Part shown: positions 41,053-48,624 of the stretch, piece by piece
How the letters are laid out: each line of letters begins with the position of its first letter
How positions within the stretch are numbered: the stretch's first letter is position 1
Assembly: GCF_016278385.1 (NCBI RefSeq)
Contig: NZ_JADQBY010000002.1
Span: 1-64,000, forward strand
From: Methanolobus sp.
GTDB lineage: Archaea; Halobacteriota; Methanosarcinia; Methanosarcinales; Methanosarcinaceae
Direction of reading: 5' to 3'
DNA: 64,000 nt
Position numbers and translations under genes: made by a program
Notes under the pieces: generated by a model
The model's input: only the letters and a program-made list of their open reading frames with translations
What the model was told of the DNA's origin: nothing
Database searches by the model: none

Positions 41053-41511
41053 TTAAAATCCAAACAATGACGATACTTTCATCACAACATTTACTACGGT
41101 ATATTTCGCAGTATTGATAAGCCCAACAGGCTCAATTACAATTTCCCCATTTTCCTTTGCAGCGATGAACTCAGCCAGTGGATCAGATGATCTGAGAATG
41201 GTCCTTACCGTGGCTTCATTTGCCCCTACGATCATAGTTGCATCGAACTCCTCGTCATCATCTACTTCTTCAAATGTAGTGATCAATCCATCTTCAGTGA
41301 TTGCTTTTACGTATACTTCATCTCCCTCATCAGTGACGATTGCCAATTTGGTAATCTCATTACCAAGCAGAGATGTCAGGTAAGAAGGCACATAATCAAC
41401 ATTATTGTTGTACTCGGTAACCTTGTTATCCATATCATCGATTATATCAGCACTTGCCAGAGGCACGAGCATCGCTAAAAGTAACATTAATGTGAATACT
41501 ATCTTTTTCAT
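41053..41511 (-). CDS. secreted SCP2-like protein
   Basis: A 152-residue protein with a clear N-terminal signal peptide (K-K-I-V-F-T-L-M-L-L-L-A-M-L-V-P, likely cut after L-A-S-A, residues 18-21). The mature part has the alternating pattern of SCP2/sterol-carrier-like domains: an acidic strand, D-A-T-M-I-V-G, then T-V-R-T-I-L-R-S-S-D-P-L-A-E-F-I and N-G-E-I-V-I-E-P-V-G. It may bind a hydrophobic ligand outside the membrane; this is inference from pattern. AAGGAGG 7 nt upstream makes the start firm. It has its own hairpin terminator. Confidence 0.7.
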   Translation of the reverse strand: MKKIVFTLMLLLAMLVPLASADIIDDMDNKVTEYNNNVDYVPSYLTSLLGNEITKLAIVTDEGDEVYVKAITEDGLITTFEEVDDDEEFDATMIVGANEATVRTILRSSDPLAEFIAAKENGEIVIEPVGLINTAKYTVVNVVMKVSSLFGF

Positions 41512-41843
41512 TCACTTCCTCCTTTCTTAACTTTCTTTCAATTACTATCTCTGTGGAATAGATATACCAGAGCAATTATGTAATATCCAGTGCACCCCGT
41601 ACCTGCACATATGCTATAATTCTAGTTATACATTTTCGTATGGATTAAAAATATTAAGAGAGAGTAATACTAAAGAAGAGCCTTCCTTAACTACAAGTAA
41701 ATTCATCATGTTTGATGGACACATGTAACTTTTTACTTTGTAGAAGGCATGTTATTATAGATACAGGAAGAGAAATAGAATTAGAATAGATGCTGATTCA
41801 AAATACAGCATCATTCACTGATAATATCAAATTCATCGGTTAA
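41512..41843. other. intergenic region with no gene seen
   Basis: About 330 bp between the TauE/SafE gene end and the secreted protein start, both on the minus strand. It is AT-rich and should carry the promoter of the secreted protein. No RNA gene, strong inverted repeat or coding frame stands out. Confidence 0.5.
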
Positions 41844-42596
41844 TCATATCAATCCGGATACTATTTTCACAGCCATTATCCACAAGACTACGCCAAACAT
41901 CTGCTTGATTGTCTTTGACTTCATTTTACTGTGCATCAAATGTGAACCTACCTGACCACCTATAAATGCAGCTATAGCCGTATAGACCATAAGTGTCACA
42001 TCCAGATGTCCTGTACCCATATGACCAAAGAATCCCGAGAATGATGAGAACAACACGATGAAAGTCGAAGTTGCAAAAGCACGTTTTGTCTCATAGCCCA
42101 GTGCGATCAGGAGAGGCACAATGAAAACACCGCCACCGAGTCCAAGAAGTCCGGCAAAAACACCGATCATAAATCCAAGACATATACCGATTATAAATCT
42201 CTTTTTCTTGACCACGGACTCATTACTACCCTCTGCTCCCTTATTTCCAGACAATAACATCCGTGTCCCTGCAAGCAGCAACACAATGCTGAGTATCCAC
42301 AGTAGTGCTCCAGTAGAGACGAACTTTGTGAAATAAGCACCAATAGGAGCACCAATGGTAGAAGTCAATACAAAAGGAGTTGCCATATGCAGATCGATCA
42401 TTTTTTTCCTGTAATATGTGATCGCTGCAGAACTGGAAGTTATACCATTAAGTAGCAATGCTGTGGGGATAGCTACCAGCATATCGATACCCAGCCAGTA
42501 GAACAGCGGCACATATACCAGAGAACCGCCATGACCCAGCATTGAGAATATTATAGCCAAGAAAAAGATTATAACTGCAACAATGATCGGGTCCAT
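41844..42596 (-). CDS. TauE/SafE family transporter (sulfite exporter-like)
   Basis: A 250-residue membrane protein with about eight spans in two repeats, marked by G-H-G-G-S-L-V-Y-V-P-L near residue 22 and G-L-G-G-G-V-F-I-V-P-L near residue 153. Members export sulfite, sulfoacetate or other organic anions, or have unknown substrates. The gene is 60 bp downstream of the FmdE-like gene on the same strand and may share its transcript. Confidence 0.9.
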   Translation of the reverse strand: MDPIIVAVIIFFLAIIFSMLGHGGSLVYVPLFYWLGIDMLVAIPTALLLNGITSSSAAITYYRKKMIDLHMATPFVLTSTIGAPIGAYFTKFVSTGALLWILSIVLLLAGTRMLLSGNKGAEGSNESVVKKKRFIIGICLGFMIGVFAGLLGLGGGVFIVPLLIALGYETKRAFATSTFIVLFSSFSGFFGHMGTGHLDVTLMVYTAIAAFIGGQVGSHLMHSKMKSKTIKQMFGVVLWIMAVKIVSGLI

Positions 42597-42656
42597 TTGT
42601 ATCAGTCCAGGAGTTTGAAATTACAGGAGGAATAAAGAAAAGTGGTACTACCGCAC

Positions 42657-43145
42657 CTACAATTTATGAACCTCTTCCATACATGGGCGGCAGACTATCT
42701 CCTCATCAAGTATGTTAGCATACTTCCCAATTACCATTTCCTGACATTTGGAACATTTCACACGCTTAAATTGCACAACAAGAGAGTCAAGCTCATAGTC
42801 AAATACATCAGTTACTTCGATGAAAGCTGAATCAGGCATTGACATTACCATGTCTATTGAAGGTTGTGAGATATCGCAAGATGCCTGAGATGCTGGAACT
42901 CCGGGCTTCCTTTGCTGCATAAAAGGAGACTGCTCCATCTTTACGAAGGATGCAGGCACTACGTATGATCTGACTGCTTTGTTGTCCTTGCTAGAAATAA
43001 GTGTCATTGCTATTTTTCCGTAATGGGTCTTCTTTATGTTACCTTTTCCCACCGTACATCCAGTGGCAACCTGTACTCCATCTCCAAAGCAACCTGCACA
43101 GTGAGCATCTCCGAGGTCAAGCATTTCTTCTTTTGTCATTTCCAT
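42657..43145 (-). CDS. FmdE-like protein with C-terminal zinc ribbon
   Basis: 162 residues. The N-terminal part (A-H-C-A-G-C-F-G-D-G-V-Q-V-A-T-G-C-T-V-G-K-G-N) matches the core of FmdE, a family named after a gene co-transcribed with formylmethanofuran dehydrogenase. The C-terminus has two CxxC pairs (C-S-K-C and C-R-P-C) typical of a zinc ribbon. The usual longer N-terminal FmdE segment is missing, so this is a short variant. AAGGTGAT lies 5 nt upstream. Its neighbours are a DUF2148 protein and a COG0523 GTPase; a metal-related role is plausible but unproven. Confidence 0.8.
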   Translation of the reverse strand: MEMTKEEMLDLGDAHCAGCFGDGVQVATGCTVGKGNIKKTHYGKIAMTLISSKDNKAVRSYVVPASFVKMEQSPFMQQRKPGVPASQASCDISQPSIDMVMSMPDSAFIEVTDVFDYELDSLVVQFKRVKCSKCQEMVIGKYANILDEEIVCRPCMEEVHKL

Positions 43146-43344
43146 TTATATCACCTTAATAAGTTGTTTTGTGTGGTTTTGTCAGTATTGCACAATACCC
43201 GTATTAAAATATAAAATATTGATACTGAAACAGAGAAGTTTCAAATATATTTGAAATACACGTGCAAAACAATATCTGAAAATCTGTTATTGAATGGTAT
43301 CAGAAAAATTATAGAAGAAAATGAAAGGATGGTCAAACTACCGC

Positions 43345-43893
43345 CTACCTGGTAGACGATCTGTCAAAGAAGATGTTCTTCCCCTTGACACTCAACGGAA
43401 CAGCCATTGCAACATCTGCATCTATCATATCAAAGTAGCATGCAGCAGCACCTGCTGAATACATGATTCTGTTATCGACGCACAGGTCTTTTGCTTTTGC
43501 AACCGCAGAGCCAACAGCAATTCCAAGGTCCACGTATTTTATCATGCAATGCGGACCTGTAAACTCTACCTTGACCTTTTTGTTCTCAAGCATTTCCTTA
43601 CATGTCTTAAATCCGCATGCTCCGCAGTTAAGTGAGCTAACACCAGAAGACTTCAGGCCGATAAGAACCAATAAATCAGCATCCCTTACATTCTTTGCAT
43701 CCCGTATCAGGAACTTCATATCCTTGATTTCGCTGAGCTCTTCCATTTTATCCGCAAGATACATTCTTTCATCATCATGCACCAGAAAGGTAACGATATC
43801 ATCGACACCTTTTCCCTTGGGTGCGGTCCTTGCAGCTACAAGAATAGTCTTTGCAAGTGATTCAAGTACCTCGTTTTCAGGATTTTGTTTCAT
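43345..43893 (-). CDS. DUF2148 iron-sulfur protein
   Basis: 182 residues of the DUF2148 (ferredoxin-domain-containing) family. It opens with A-K-T-I-L-V-A-A-R-T-A-P-K-G-K-G. It has the cysteine cluster N-C-G-A-C-G-F-K-T-C near residue 110 followed by P-H-C about 22 residues later, and the second half contains A-K-D-L-C-V-D-N-R-I-M-Y-S. The family is widespread in anaerobes and uncharacterised; an Fe-S cluster is likely. Located between the COG0523 GTPase and the FmdE-like gene, all in one direction. Confidence 0.88.
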   Translation of the reverse strand: MKQNPENEVLESLAKTILVAARTAPKGKGVDDIVTFLVHDDERMYLADKMEELSEIKDMKFLIRDAKNVRDADLLVLIGLKSSGVSSLNCGACGFKTCKEMLENKKVKVEFTGPHCMIKYVDLGIAVGSAVAKAKDLCVDNRIMYSAGAAACYFDMIDADVAMAVPLSVKGKNIFFDRSSTR

Positions 43894-43985
43894 AAAAAAG
43901 AAAACGTTTCAATGATATTTATTCATTGAGATGAAAATAGTAATACATGACAGAAATTATTTGTCCTGCCAAAAAACTATGCCAG

Positions 43986-45038
43986 TTAAATATCCAAAGT
44001 TATCAATTTGGGTTCATCATGTGCCTGGAAACTGATTTTCTCAAAAGAAATACTTTCCTTTTCCAGAATATCCTGTATGCATTCATCAACAATCCCCACA
44101 AGTTCTTCCTTCTGGACTTTCGTTACCGCACTGAGGAACTTGAGATGCTCTTCCCCATCTCCTTTTTCATCAAGTATTTCAACAACCGGTTCACCTTCGG
44201 AAGATGTCAGGCTGCCCTTGATAAGACCGTCCTTGAACTTGAAACTGATCTTAACATGACCTATGAACTCAGGATTTATCAGTTTCACTTTATCCCTTAT
44301 ATCCATTAAAATATGGACCAGCATTGTTGTGGCATTATCAGGATGCATAGCTTCCGACTTGATGGAATACTCACCTGCATAGGCACCCACACCTGAAACC
44401 TCCATGGAGTTCAGGTCCTCACGTTCCTGATGTATCTCACTTTCACCTGTCAGCAGGTCCATGAATCTCTCGAATTTCTCATCTGCATTCTTTGCTGAGA
44501 ATTCAACAACAATTGCATCAGGATTTATTCCAAGGACCATCTGAGTTGAAGTTGCAATGGCTTCACTGTCAACAAGGTCTATCTTATTGATACAAACAAT
44601 TTCGGATTCCTTAATCTGGCTTTCAATAAACCTTGGGATCTGTTTCCATTCAACACCAAACCTGCTGGCATCAACTATGGAAACCACCGGAGCGAATGAG
44701 ACCTCACCCAGATCCATGAGTTCTATATGCTCCTTGATCTGAAGAGGGAAAGCAATTCCCGTCGGCTCGATAATAACAACATCAGGCTCATAATCCTCAA
44801 TAATGGTTTGCAGTGTGAATTCCATGCTTATTTTAAGGGAACAGCAAATACAGCCACTTGTAAGCTCTTTTGTCACAAGACCACTGCTTGATATTGTCTC
44901 ACCATCTACTCCAACCTCACCAACCTCATTAACAATTATGGCTAGTTTGTGCCCTTTATCGATCAGATGTTTAGCAAGATTCCTTAAAGTAGTTGTTTTT
45001 CCGCTGCCGAGAAAACCACCTATGATTATCACTTTCAT
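43986..45038 (-). CDS. CobW/COG0523 family GTPase (metallochaperone-like)
   Basis: A 350-residue G3E-family GTPase: P-loop G-G-F-L-G-S-G-K-T-T at 6-15, the metal-binding C-I-C-C motif in T-S-G-C-I-C-C-S-L near residue 64, I-E-P-T-G and the guanine-recognition N-K-I-D. Such proteins deliver metals or cofactors to target enzymes. The long C-terminal half (200-350) differs from CobW and may recognise the target. The start at 45038 follows GGTGAAAAT. Probably the first gene of the group ending in TauE/SafE. Confidence 0.9.
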   Translation of the reverse strand: MKVIIIGGFLGSGKTTTLRNLAKHLIDKGHKLAIIVNEVGEVGVDGETISSSGLVTKELTSGCICCSLKISMEFTLQTIIEDYEPDVVIIEPTGIAFPLQIKEHIELMDLGEVSFAPVVSIVDASRFGVEWKQIPRFIESQIKESEIVCINKIDLVDSEAIATSTQMVLGINPDAIVVEFSAKNADEKFERFMDLLTGESEIHQEREDLNSMEVSGVGAYAGEYSIKSEAMHPDNATTMLVHILMDIRDKVKLINPEFIGHVKISFKFKDGLIKGSLTSSEGEPVVEILDEKGDGEEHLKFLSAVTKVQKEELVGIVDECIQDILEKESISFEKISFQAHDEPKLITLDI

Positions 45039-45180: not shown

Positions 45181-48100
45181 CTACTGATGTAAAGGAAGTC
45201 GAATGTGAATTATCGTTCCTTTTCCTTCCTTGCTTGTGGCATGGATATCACCTTTGTGGTCTTCAATTATCTTCTTGCAGATATAAAGACCAAGTCCGGT
45301 TCCCCCATACCTTCTTTTTACGGATGAATCCACCTGATAGAAGCGTTCGAAGAGTTTATGGATCTTGTCTGTGGGGATACCGATACCAGTGTCCTCCACA
45401 TTCACATAAAGAGAATCCTCTGTGGCATGTGCCGAAATAGTCACCTTGCCATTCTGCGGTGTGAATTTAATAGCATTATCTATCAGGTTGACAAAGACAT
45501 CCATCATCTTATCACGATCAGCAGGTACAGTGGGAAGGTCTGCAGAAATATCTTTTATCAGTTTAATACCCTTCCCTTCTGCCTGAAGTGCAAGATCCTG
45601 CATTGAATTATCAATAACATCCGACAGATTTATGTCCTCAAATGAATAATTCAGCTTTCCGGACTGTGCCCTGCTAAGATACAGCAGGGAATCCACAAGT
45701 CTGCGCAGACGTTCAGAGTTCCTGATAACAGTATCTTCAGCCTTTTTCTGCTGCTCGTTAACAGAACCCAGTGTCTCATCAGCTATCAACTGGCTATATC
45801 CCTGAATAGATGTAAGCGGTGTTTTGAACTCATGGCTTACATTGGACAGGAAATCATCTTTCATCCTGTCAAGGGACTTCAGTTCTTCATTCGCCTCTGA
45901 AAGCTCAGTATTTGCCTTTGATAATTTGGCATTTACCCTGGACAGCTCATCGGCATATTCCCGCAATGTCTCCTCGGCTCTTTTACGCTGTATAAGTCTC
46001 CACATGCCTTCCATGAACAATGTAAGCTGCCTTACATCGGATTTATCGTATTCTTCTTCTTTGTTCCCGACCCCTGCCGCACCAACTATTTTCTTGCCAT
46101 CGAATATGGGGATGTTCATGTAGCGTTTCATCCTGATATGCCCTTCAGGATAACCATGTTTCAACAAGTTAGGAGCATCAAAATCATTGATAACTATAGG
46201 CTTTTTCTGCCGAATGGACTCTCCCCAAAGACCTGTTTCCTCAAGTGGATATTCCAGCTTCTTTCCCCTGACCTTACATTCCTTCATTATATTCTTTGAC
46301 CAGGAATACACAGTAAGGACAGTCCCTTCATCATTCAGGAAAGCGAGATAACCAATCTTACTCTGGGTAAGCCTGACGGCCTCCTCCTGTACAAAATCAG
46401 CAATTTCCTTAAGAGAAGTACCAGTCAGCTGATTGATCTTCAAAAGGGCTTCAAGTCTCGATTCATCAAGACGTAAAGCCTCTTCTGCCTTTTTACGTAT
46501 GGAGATATCCCCAAAGATACCGATACCTCCAAGAAAAGTACCATCTTCTGCAACATTCGGACTGTAATCAGCCTTTAGATAGACATCCTTTCCACTGATG
46601 ACAGTACGATATTTCCCTTCAAAATGACCTGTTTTTCGGAAAAGAGCATCATTAATCGCCTTTTTCATCATCTTGTCAGTTATCTGTGTGACCATATTAA
46701 AACCGATGATATCTTCCTTATTCTGCAGACCTATTATCTGCAGGAATTTCTCATTGCAGTGAGTTACGATCCCTTCAGCATTGAACTGGAATATTCCCAG
46801 GGGAGAATTCTCAAAGATAAGGCGGTATTTTTTCTCAGCCTCAAGAACAGCGTCTTCTGCCTTTTTGCGTTCAGAAATGTCCTCAAATACCCCTATACCT
46901 CCAAGGAAAGTACCATCATCTGCAACATTCGGACTGTAGTCAGCCTTAATGTAAATAGTTACATCACTTGAAACTGTGTGGTATTCACCTTCAAAGTGTC
47001 CGACCTTCCTTGAGAGAACATCATCCACAGCTTTTTTCATCTTTGACTCTACAATTGACGCAACCATATCAAAACCTATAATGTCCTCTTTCTTCTGGAG
47101 TTGCATTATTTTCAGAAACTTCTCGTTGCAGTGGGTTATGATACCATTTTCATTAAAGTGAAAAAGCCCAAGTGGAGAATTTTCGAATATCATACGATAT
47201 TTTTTCTCAGAATCTAGTGCAGCTTCTTCAGCTTTTTTCCTTTCTGTGATATCAATGATTATACCCTGGTAATATGCAGGGTTGCCTTTTTCATCCCTTA
47301 TAAGGTACGACCTCTCCGTAACCCATCTGACTTCCTTGGATTTTGTTAGTAAGCGATACTCTTTTGAAAAGAACATTTTACCCTGGACCTCGAGCTGGGA
47401 AATATCTGTTCGGACATAATGCAGATCATCCGGATGAATTATGTCGCCATATTTCATTTGACCAGATATAAGATCATCAGAACTGAAACCGAACTGGGAA
47501 ATATTTTCGGAAACAAAAACCACTGGCCAATCCTCTTCAGCAATCCAGAGAAAAGCAACAACCGGACTTTCCCGGTAAATATCATCCAGCTTTTGAATGG
47601 ATTTGAACTTATCCCGCAGAATCTTATGATCGATCTTTTGTTCCACAAGCTTACCAACAGTACCGAGCATACCCTCATAATTACCTTCATCATCCGTTAG
47701 TGGAAGTAGAAAACCACTGTGATATATGAACTGGCCGTCTGGTTTCATGAAAGGGAAAATATCATAACTCCTTGAGTGAAGATTTTCCTTTGCTATCTGG
47801 AAAATATCGATGAAACTTAACTCACCCCCATCTGTATGAGGAGGTATGAAACTTGCCAGCTTTTTCCCGAGCACATCACTTTTTGATAGGCCAGAGATAG
47901 ATTCCATACCCTTGTTGAAGTAGACGATGTTATCATGCTTATCCACAGTCCAGACACCTGTCCAGACACTCTCAAGCATGTCATCAGGGAAGTGGGTTTC
48001 TTTCATGACTGTCTTGCATGAGGAGGAGCTTTGAAGCAGAGTCCACTTATCTTTCTTTTTTACGATCGTGCCATCGTGCATACCGATGACCGCAATTATC

Positions 48101-48624
48101 TCAGATCGTGTACGTGCTTCAAGTAAAAAAGCGAACAGACCAATAATGCCCTTCATTTTGATAAGTTCCATGGCCTTTTTTTCGTATTCAACAAAATGCT
48201 GCCAGGCATTTTCCCCCACAATGGTAAACTTATCGACTATCCGCAGACCATCATAACCTTCGGCTATTGCAATATCGTAGATCTCCTGCCATTTATTCAG
48301 ATCATGTTCTGAAACCGCACCTTCCCCTGCGATGTAACATTCATTGCAGGAGGTTAGCATAAGCTGTCCGCTTTCCAGATACTTATCCACATCCAGACCC
48401 GCATCCTTTAGTAACTTTTTTGCATTATCAGTGTCAAGCTGACCTGAAACTCCCCACAGGCAACACTCATTGTTACTAAAACCGGCATCAAAGAATGAAG
48501 CCACTATATCCACAAAATCTTCTGTTTTTTCGTACAGCAGGGAAAAAGAACTCCCCCGTGTTATATCTTCTATGAAATCAATTTCTGAATTGATAGTCTG
48601 GATGCTGATATTATAACCCCGCAT
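45181..48624 (-). CDS. MEDS-PAS(4)-GAF sensor histidine kinase
   Basis: A 1147-residue soluble kinase with no membrane span. Order: MEDS domain (about 20-180), PAS 1 (about 210-330), PAS 2 (350-470), PAS 3 (475-590), PAS 4 (600-720), GAF (735-880), coiled coil (880-920), HisKA with S-N-V-S-H-E-F-K-T-P-L (near 925), then HATPase with N-A-I-K-F-T, D-T-G-I-G-I and G-G-T-G-L-G-L. MEDS domains were named from methanogen and methylotroph sensors (DcmR, MsmS, RdmS). PAS 3 and 4 are near-copies, a recent internal duplication. No response regulator lies nearby. There is no strong Shine-Dalgarno before the ATG. Confidence 0.92.
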   Translation of the reverse strand: MRGYNISIQTINSEIDFIEDITRGSSFSLLYEKTEDFVDIVASFFDAGFSNNECCLWGVSGQLDTDNAKKLLKDAGLDVDKYLESGQLMLTSCNECYIAGEGAVSEHDLNKWQEIYDIAIAEGYDGLRIVDKFTIVGENAWQHFVEYEKKAMELIKMKGIIGLFAFLLEARTRSEIIAVIGMHDGTIVKKKDKWTLLQSSSSCKTVMKETHFPDDMLESVWTGVWTVDKHDNIVYFNKGMESISGLSKSDVLGKKLASFIPPHTDGGELSFIDIFQIAKENLHSRSYDIFPFMKPDGQFIYHSGFLLPLTDDEGNYEGMLGTVGKLVEQKIDHKILRDKFKSIQKLDDIYRESPVVAFLWIAEEDWPVVFVSENISQFGFSSDDLISGQMKYGDIIHPDDLHYVRTDISQLEVQGKMFFSKEYRLLTKSKEVRWVTERSYLIRDEKGNPAYYQGIIIDITERKKAEEAALDSEKKYRMIFENSPLGLFHFNENGIITHCNEKFLKIMQLQKKEDIIGFDMVASIVESKMKKAVDDVLSRKVGHFEGEYHTVSSDVTIYIKADYSPNVADDGTFLGGIGVFEDISERKKAEDAVLEAEKKYRLIFENSPLGIFQFNAEGIVTHCNEKFLQIIGLQNKEDIIGFNMVTQITDKMMKKAINDALFRKTGHFEGKYRTVISGKDVYLKADYSPNVAEDGTFLGGIGIFGDISIRKKAEEALRLDESRLEALLKINQLTGTSLKEIADFVQEEAVRLTQSKIGYLAFLNDEGTVLTVYSWSKNIMKECKVRGKKLEYPLEETGLWGESIRQKKPIVINDFDAPNLLKHGYPEGHIRMKRYMNIPIFDGKKIVGAAGVGNKEEEYDKSDVRQLTLFMEGMWRLIQRKRAEETLREYADELSRVNAKLSKANTELSEANEELKSLDRMKDDFLSNVSHEFKTPLTSIQGYSQLIADETLGSVNEQQKKAEDTVIRNSERLRRLVDSLLYLSRAQSGKLNYSFEDINLSDVIDNSMQDLALQAEGKGIKLIKDISADLPTVPADRDKMMDVFVNLIDNAIKFTPQNGKVTISAHATEDSLYVNVEDTGIGIPTDKIHKLFERFYQVDSSVKRRYGGTGLGLYICKKIIEDHKGDIHATSKEGKGTIIHIRLPLHQ

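Follow-up and report, generated by a model that had tools for sequence, protein, structure and literature searches.

The four consecutive genes found at positions 41844 to 45038 of the window, the 64,000-nucleotide stretch of Methanolobus DNA analyzed here, are two unrelated gene pairs lying side by side and having different histories. One pair encodes a COG0523-type GTPase and a DUF2148 protein, the other an FmdE-family protein and a TauE/SafE-family permease. The site occupied by the second pair is probably a decayed metalloid (arsenic) resistance site, and the intact pair is proposed to act as a binder with its exporter. The gene order, a deletion within FmdE, a missing ACR3 gene and intact copies elsewhere in the same genome, a 2.88 Mb draft of 52 contigs, were all observed directly.

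Two gene pairs with different distributions

The genes of this locus are all encoded on the minus strand. A MEDS/PAS/GAF sensor histidine kinase (45181–48624; PF14417 at 1.5e-27, HisKA and HATPase_c) precedes the COG0523/G3E-type GTPase (43986–45038; PF02492, 2.2e-41, 141.8 bits), whose start is placed at 45038 and whose ORF is extendable to 45083. The DUF2148 protein (43345–43893; PF09918, 2.2e-32), a 162-aa FmdE deletion derivative (42657–43145; PF02663 positions 37–130 of 133 only, 2.6e-15) and TauE (41844–42596; PF01925, 6.6e-49) come next. These Pfam profile matches bear out the sequence-only reading as far as the four genes and the upstream MEDS kinase are real ORFs, share one strand and belong to the families assigned. 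The intergenic gaps of about 90 nt between GTPase and DUF2148, 199 nt between DUF2148 and FmdE and 60 nt between FmdE and TauE do not force the assumption of a single operon.

The GTPase carries a Walker A motif, GGFLGSGKTT, and a GCICC motif, both read from the sequence. It shares with the COG0523 G3E GTPase metallochaperones (PMC2770081) the GTPase domain and these two motifs and differs by lacking a CobW C-terminal domain in the Pfam search, a metal-transfer role being putative. The possibility of a selenoprotein was rejected, as its best NCBIfam match, CobW_rel_Se, reached 114.7 bits for a cut-off of 180 and the frame contains no in-frame stop. The DUF2148 protein has an N-terminal domain and a putative Fe-S motif, CGACGxxTC, with an additional weak Fe-S profile match, and its cysteines are largely invariant in an alignment of 13 homologues. 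Its predicted structure is poor (mean pLDDT 58), and sequence searches of DUF2148 and TauE against solved structures returned nothing significant.

Among 120 genomes of the order, DUF2148 was encountered in 46, all within the family of the window. In each of the 13 same-genus genomes sampled, no more than 1.3 kb separates it from the orthologous GTPase, encoded on the same strand, a linkage not seen in other genera of the 120-genome set. In the same-genus regions examined, a MEDS kinase homologue is positioned as in the window. Kinase, GTPase and DUF2148 form a fixed block of the genus Methanolobus that is separate from FmdE-TauE. In G087, which belongs to another genus, the MEDS kinase is also joined to the GTPase (L098:9043-11691) and DUF2148 is located elsewhere; kinase-GTPase may therefore be the older link. 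Three relatives carry a 132-aa ORF between GTPase and DUF2148 (L090:8086-8484, L092:7533-7931 and L093:7925-8323), for which the L090 copy gave no NCBIfam match.

The distribution of FmdE-TauE follows other lines. FmdE proteins of the window-type clade (74–83% identity) were found within the 120-genome set in the same-genus relative G075 and in another family, where three genomes have them, with further members in other public archaeal genomes (L106–L108). TauE is the next gene in members of this clade, and DUF2148 adjoins only in the window and G075, the only two places where the four families occur together. A check of gene order and family co-occurrence in other genomes, put forward in the sequence-only reading, thus gave a negative answer for the four-gene set. 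In the other 11 same-genus regions the FmdE-TauE pair is missing from the site though GTPase-DUF2148 persist. Because GTPase-DUF2148, confined to the genus, and FmdE-TauE, spread over many phyla, occur apart, the two pairs have different histories, and FmdE-TauE is a mobile pair. Values of dS between the window and G075 are 0.28–0.39 over the four genes and reach 1.3 in some flanking genes, which suggests that the block was recently exchanged.

Arsenic genes at the variable site

A comparison set of 12 same-genus regions around GTPase-DUF2148 delimits the insertion site. Common to these regions are the kinase, the GTPase, DUF2148 and, with few exceptions, a downstream gene for a conserved 152-aa secreted-type protein (41053–41511 in the window), which gave no Pfam family above cut-off, lies on this side in the majority of the relatives and marks the far side of the site. 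The variable part is the stretch between DUF2148 and this gene. Arsenic genes, ACR3 and/or ArsC-like, occupy this gap behind DUF2148 in 10 of the 12 regions. ACR3 is present in eight (G075, G033, G089, G049, G037, G095, G079 and G112; by coordinates, eight of 13 relatives), with scores of 377–379 bits against the equivalog model, whose cut-off is 282.8. One or two ArsC-like proteins occur in five, namely G037, G095, G112 and the ACR3-less G065 and G069. These low-molecular-weight proteins scored 100–118 bits in several relatives, below the curated cut-offs, and are therefore called ArsC-like only.

In G075 the order is GTPase-DUF2148-FmdE-TauE-ACR3-downstream gene, and the window shows the same order minus ACR3, with 332 bp left (41512–41843) at the position that ACR3 occupies in G075 and seven further relatives. 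Neither ACR3 nor an ArsC-like gene was detected at the window site. In the same genome, contig C47 encodes two ArsC-like proteins and ACR3 in the order ArsC-ArsC-ACR3. The site thus resembles ars operons (ACR3, ArsC, ArsR, ArsP, ArsD) in that its relatives hold ACR3 and/or ArsC-like genes, and many bacterial FmdE-TauE pairs sit inside such clusters; the window differs in having no ars gene left. The earlier suggestion of a sulfur-anion detoxification pathway came close for its anion part and for the FmdE-TauE half, given the ACR3 and ArsC-like genes held by this site in relatives and the metalloid-resistance clusters that contain the pair in bacteria, and failed as a pathway of four genes.

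Probable decay of FmdE

FmdE had been described as a short variant with a zinc ribbon. The C-terminal CxxC...CxxC ribbon is present and intact (CSKC...CRPC, 42681–42755), its aligned cysteines being invariant, whereas the shortness is no natural variation: compared with the closest homologue, 126 nt have been deleted in frame. DNA alignment with G075 reveals a single clean gap between two GGA triplets, a microhomology present at both deletion ends in G075, and the protein resumes in frame across the junction CTC-GGA-GAT (43110–43115). The window protein has 162 aa versus 204 aa for the intact homologue, and the 42 lost residues include FKFHGHRCPGMPLG. In FmdE structures, the N-terminal metal ligands are His16, His18, Cys20 and Cys61 (Axelrod et al. 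2010, PMC2954224). Full-length homologues match the Thermoplasma Ta1109 type of that work (PDB 2GVI) over nearly the whole length with 157 bits, and likewise possess the N-terminal HGHxC, Cys61 and a C-terminal treble-clef zinc finger. The window FmdE differs from this type by the deletion of the equivalents of His16, His18 and Cys20, three of the four ligands; the HGHxC ligands absent here are present in every other aligned homologue. What follows HGHxC in the core domain (GCTxGKGN..., with the Cys61 equivalent) is kept, at 57 bits against the PF02663 cut-off of 22.9, as is the treble-clef zinc ribbon, an optional element of that family.

Substitution patterns point in the same direction. The dN/dS ratio is highest for FmdE (0.25–0.30), followed by TauE (0.14–0.18) and by GTPase and DUF2148 (0.06–0.09). 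At otherwise invariant sites, private changes number seven in the window FmdE versus three in that of G075, and three versus none for TauE in a comparison with six homologues. The window-only TauE changes are L22H, A73T and S176F, the first falling within the otherwise invariant MLGLGG. TauE matches the PF01925 profile over its full length (positions 2–236 of 237, 167 bits) with predicted anion transport.

The short FmdE is best read as a decaying gene, with TauE loosening. As the deletion removes His, His and Cys of a His2Cys2 metal site, we infer that this FmdE is probably non-functional; the frames of FmdE and TauE are still open and their dN/dS is below 1, so the decay would be recent or partial. 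A residual function of the zinc ribbon is possible. It is improbable that the protein represents a functional new variant, such as a zinc-ribbon regulator or a dimer partner needing no N-terminal metal site: an intact frame and ribbon, the dN/dS below 1 and the altered N-terminal metal ligands of the FmdE protein Q2LQ23 (PMC2954224) would agree with it, but the core domain is partly removed, changes have accumulated at otherwise invariant sites and a search of 27 genus genomes found the deletion in no second genome. Slightly less probable still is an assembly or sequencing artefact concealing an intact gene in the organism. The 52-contig draft state of the genome leaves room for such an error, against which speak a clean in-frame event at a GGA microhomology without Ns, the window-only substitutions in both FmdE and TauE and the adjoining loss of ACR3.

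Decay of FmdE also occurred elsewhere. In G003 (L190:9066-9683), an FmdE gene next to TauE is broken by one TAA stop into two ORFs of 77 and 116 aa, a second and independent case. In the genome of the window itself, an intact second FmdE-TauE pair resides at C2 (L103). Its FmdE belongs to another clade (39% identity to that of the window) and its TauE is 82% identical to the window TauE. The two genes are separated by the decayed remains of a window-type FmdE, a C-terminal fragment (C2:99041-99145; L103:9042-9146); its match containing TGA was considered as recoding and rejected in favor of a decayed fragment. A similar FmdE remnant exists in G033 (L188:8803-8957). The FmdE preceding TauE at C2 thus appears to have been exchanged for a different one, an argument for this TauE acting together with an FmdE partner.

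FmdE and its permease across archaea and bacteria

A scan of named genomes recovered 481 FmdE relatives, and neighborhoods were counted for the best 80 of 481, which come from archaea and from a broad set of bacterial phyla. In 36 of these 80, a TauE gene on the same strand is no more than 400 bp away, the assignments being confirmed on representatives, and the chromate transporter ChrA takes its place in eight. Frequent neighbors are ArsR-family regulators, ACR3, ArsP, cation diffusion facilitators, thioredoxins, DsbD-like proteins, DGC and Porin_O_P; ArsD is occasional. Neither a COG0523 GTPase nor DUF2148 was detected in the best 80 of 481 loci. As a control, ACR3 was counted in 50 host genomes (38 matches): 15 of 50 loci contain it, 14 of these 15 on the same strand, against an expectation of 0.14 under random placement. 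In f3 archaea the pair is accompanied by ArsP, DGC, a methyltransferase and a CDF transporter. Arsenic genes do not accompany every pair: none were found near the other Methanolobus pair, the f2 archaeal pairs (L100–L102) or the pairs of enterobacterial plasmids, and on these plasmids, in Sulfuricella and in Halorubrum the pair has metal, redox or ArsR-type neighbors and no ACR3. A 16-member neighbor family in GC-rich loci (e.g. L179_1) was set aside as a likely antisense shadow ORF of FmdE. FmdE with its anion exporter is a widespread companion of metalloid-resistance clusters, apparently unrecognized so far.

We propose that FmdE and its exporter form an accessory metalloid/anion efflux module, and infer the role of the intact pair as follows. 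The surface His2Cys2 site of the intact FmdE would serve to bind or modify a metalloid or sulfur anion that reacts with thiols, and the neighboring permease, TauE or ChrA in its place, would export the product. In the published structure 2GVI, Cys61 carried an unidentified ligand at covalent distance. The arrangement may be likened to arsenate extrusion by GAPDH and ArsJ (PMC6205960), in which a soluble protein is likewise encoded beside a dedicated permease in ars operons; those proteins are unrelated to FmdE and TauE, and the FmdE chemistry is putative. Our proposal is tentative in its specific form, an unrecognized two-part metalloid/thio-oxyanion detoxification module in which an FmdE of the HGHxCPxMPLG type converts or sequesters and the permease exports, and somewhat short of an even chance; arsenic or thioarsenic as the substrate is a comparably guarded suggestion. 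As for the window, the genus block kinase-GTPase-DUF2148 is followed by a variable insertion site, occupied in most relatives by ArsC-like genes and/or ACR3. The mobile FmdE-TauE pair probably entered this site during the history that this genome shares with G075, ACR3 was probably then lost from it in this genome, and the 126-nt in-frame deletion cost FmdE its metal site.

Two other functions have to be weighed against metalloid efflux. FmdE-TauE could handle reactive sulfur (sulfite, persulfide or thiosulfate) and be recruited by arsenic clusters on account of the thiol stress that metalloids bring with them. The TauE/SafE family bears the name of a sulfite exporter, the neighbors include thioredoxins, DsbD-like proteins, rhodanese, OsmC and CcdA, and ArsR-family regulators comprise persulfide sensors as well. 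We regard this as somewhat less likely than arsenic or thioarsenic as the substrate; against it, ACR3, ArsP and ArsD are metalloid-specific, the presence of ACR3 exceeds chance about 100-fold and the substitution of ChrA for TauE in eight loci points to oxyanions more widely. Far less credible is the metal-cofactor pathway suggested by the sequence-only reading, in which the four genes would assemble a molybdenum, tungsten or cobalt cofactor. COG0523 GTPases are metallochaperone candidates, formylmethanofuran dehydrogenase operons contain FmdE genes and, in f5 archaea (L191, L192 and L196, from G052, G090 and G072), a distant FmdE-TauE pair is located directly beside MoeA and near nitrate-reductase-type genes, with MobB downstream in L196, a hint that the pair may serve a molybdenum-related purpose. 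At the window locus this pathway finds no support: the four-gene order is confined to the window and G075 and is not kept in the other 11 regions, from which FmdE-TauE is absent, and the window FmdE is without its metal site. The missing co-occurrence largely refutes it.

Metalloid efflux remains our preferred reading of the pair, and the full-text literature searched, outside which most subscription journals lie, contained no paper joining FmdE to TauE or to ars operons and arsenic; on account of this coverage, the silence is weak evidence of novelty. Neither FmdE nor TauE appears in a survey of genes for arsenic resistance (PMC6205960), and the structural study of the FmdE family (PMC2954224) draws no link to arsenic. 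The window itself, a broken copy, has small direct biological weight. Its interest lies in a family routinely annotated 'formylmethanofuran dehydrogenase subunit E', also in bacteria that are not methanogens, and tightly paired with an anion exporter, often in arsenic-resistance clusters. The pairing supplies a concrete function that can be tested for a family with solved structures and no assigned role, and it cautions that not every FmdE is a methanogenesis marker. If the detoxification module is real, proteins spread over archaea, many bacterial phyla and enterobacterial plasmids are misnamed as formylmethanofuran dehydrogenase subunits. On large Citrobacter and Klebsiella plasmids (L197 and L200), a recombinase and transposases adjoin the pair, additional TauE genes and an ArsR/SmtB regulator accompany it, and matches of equal identity were obtained for 20 plasmid records.
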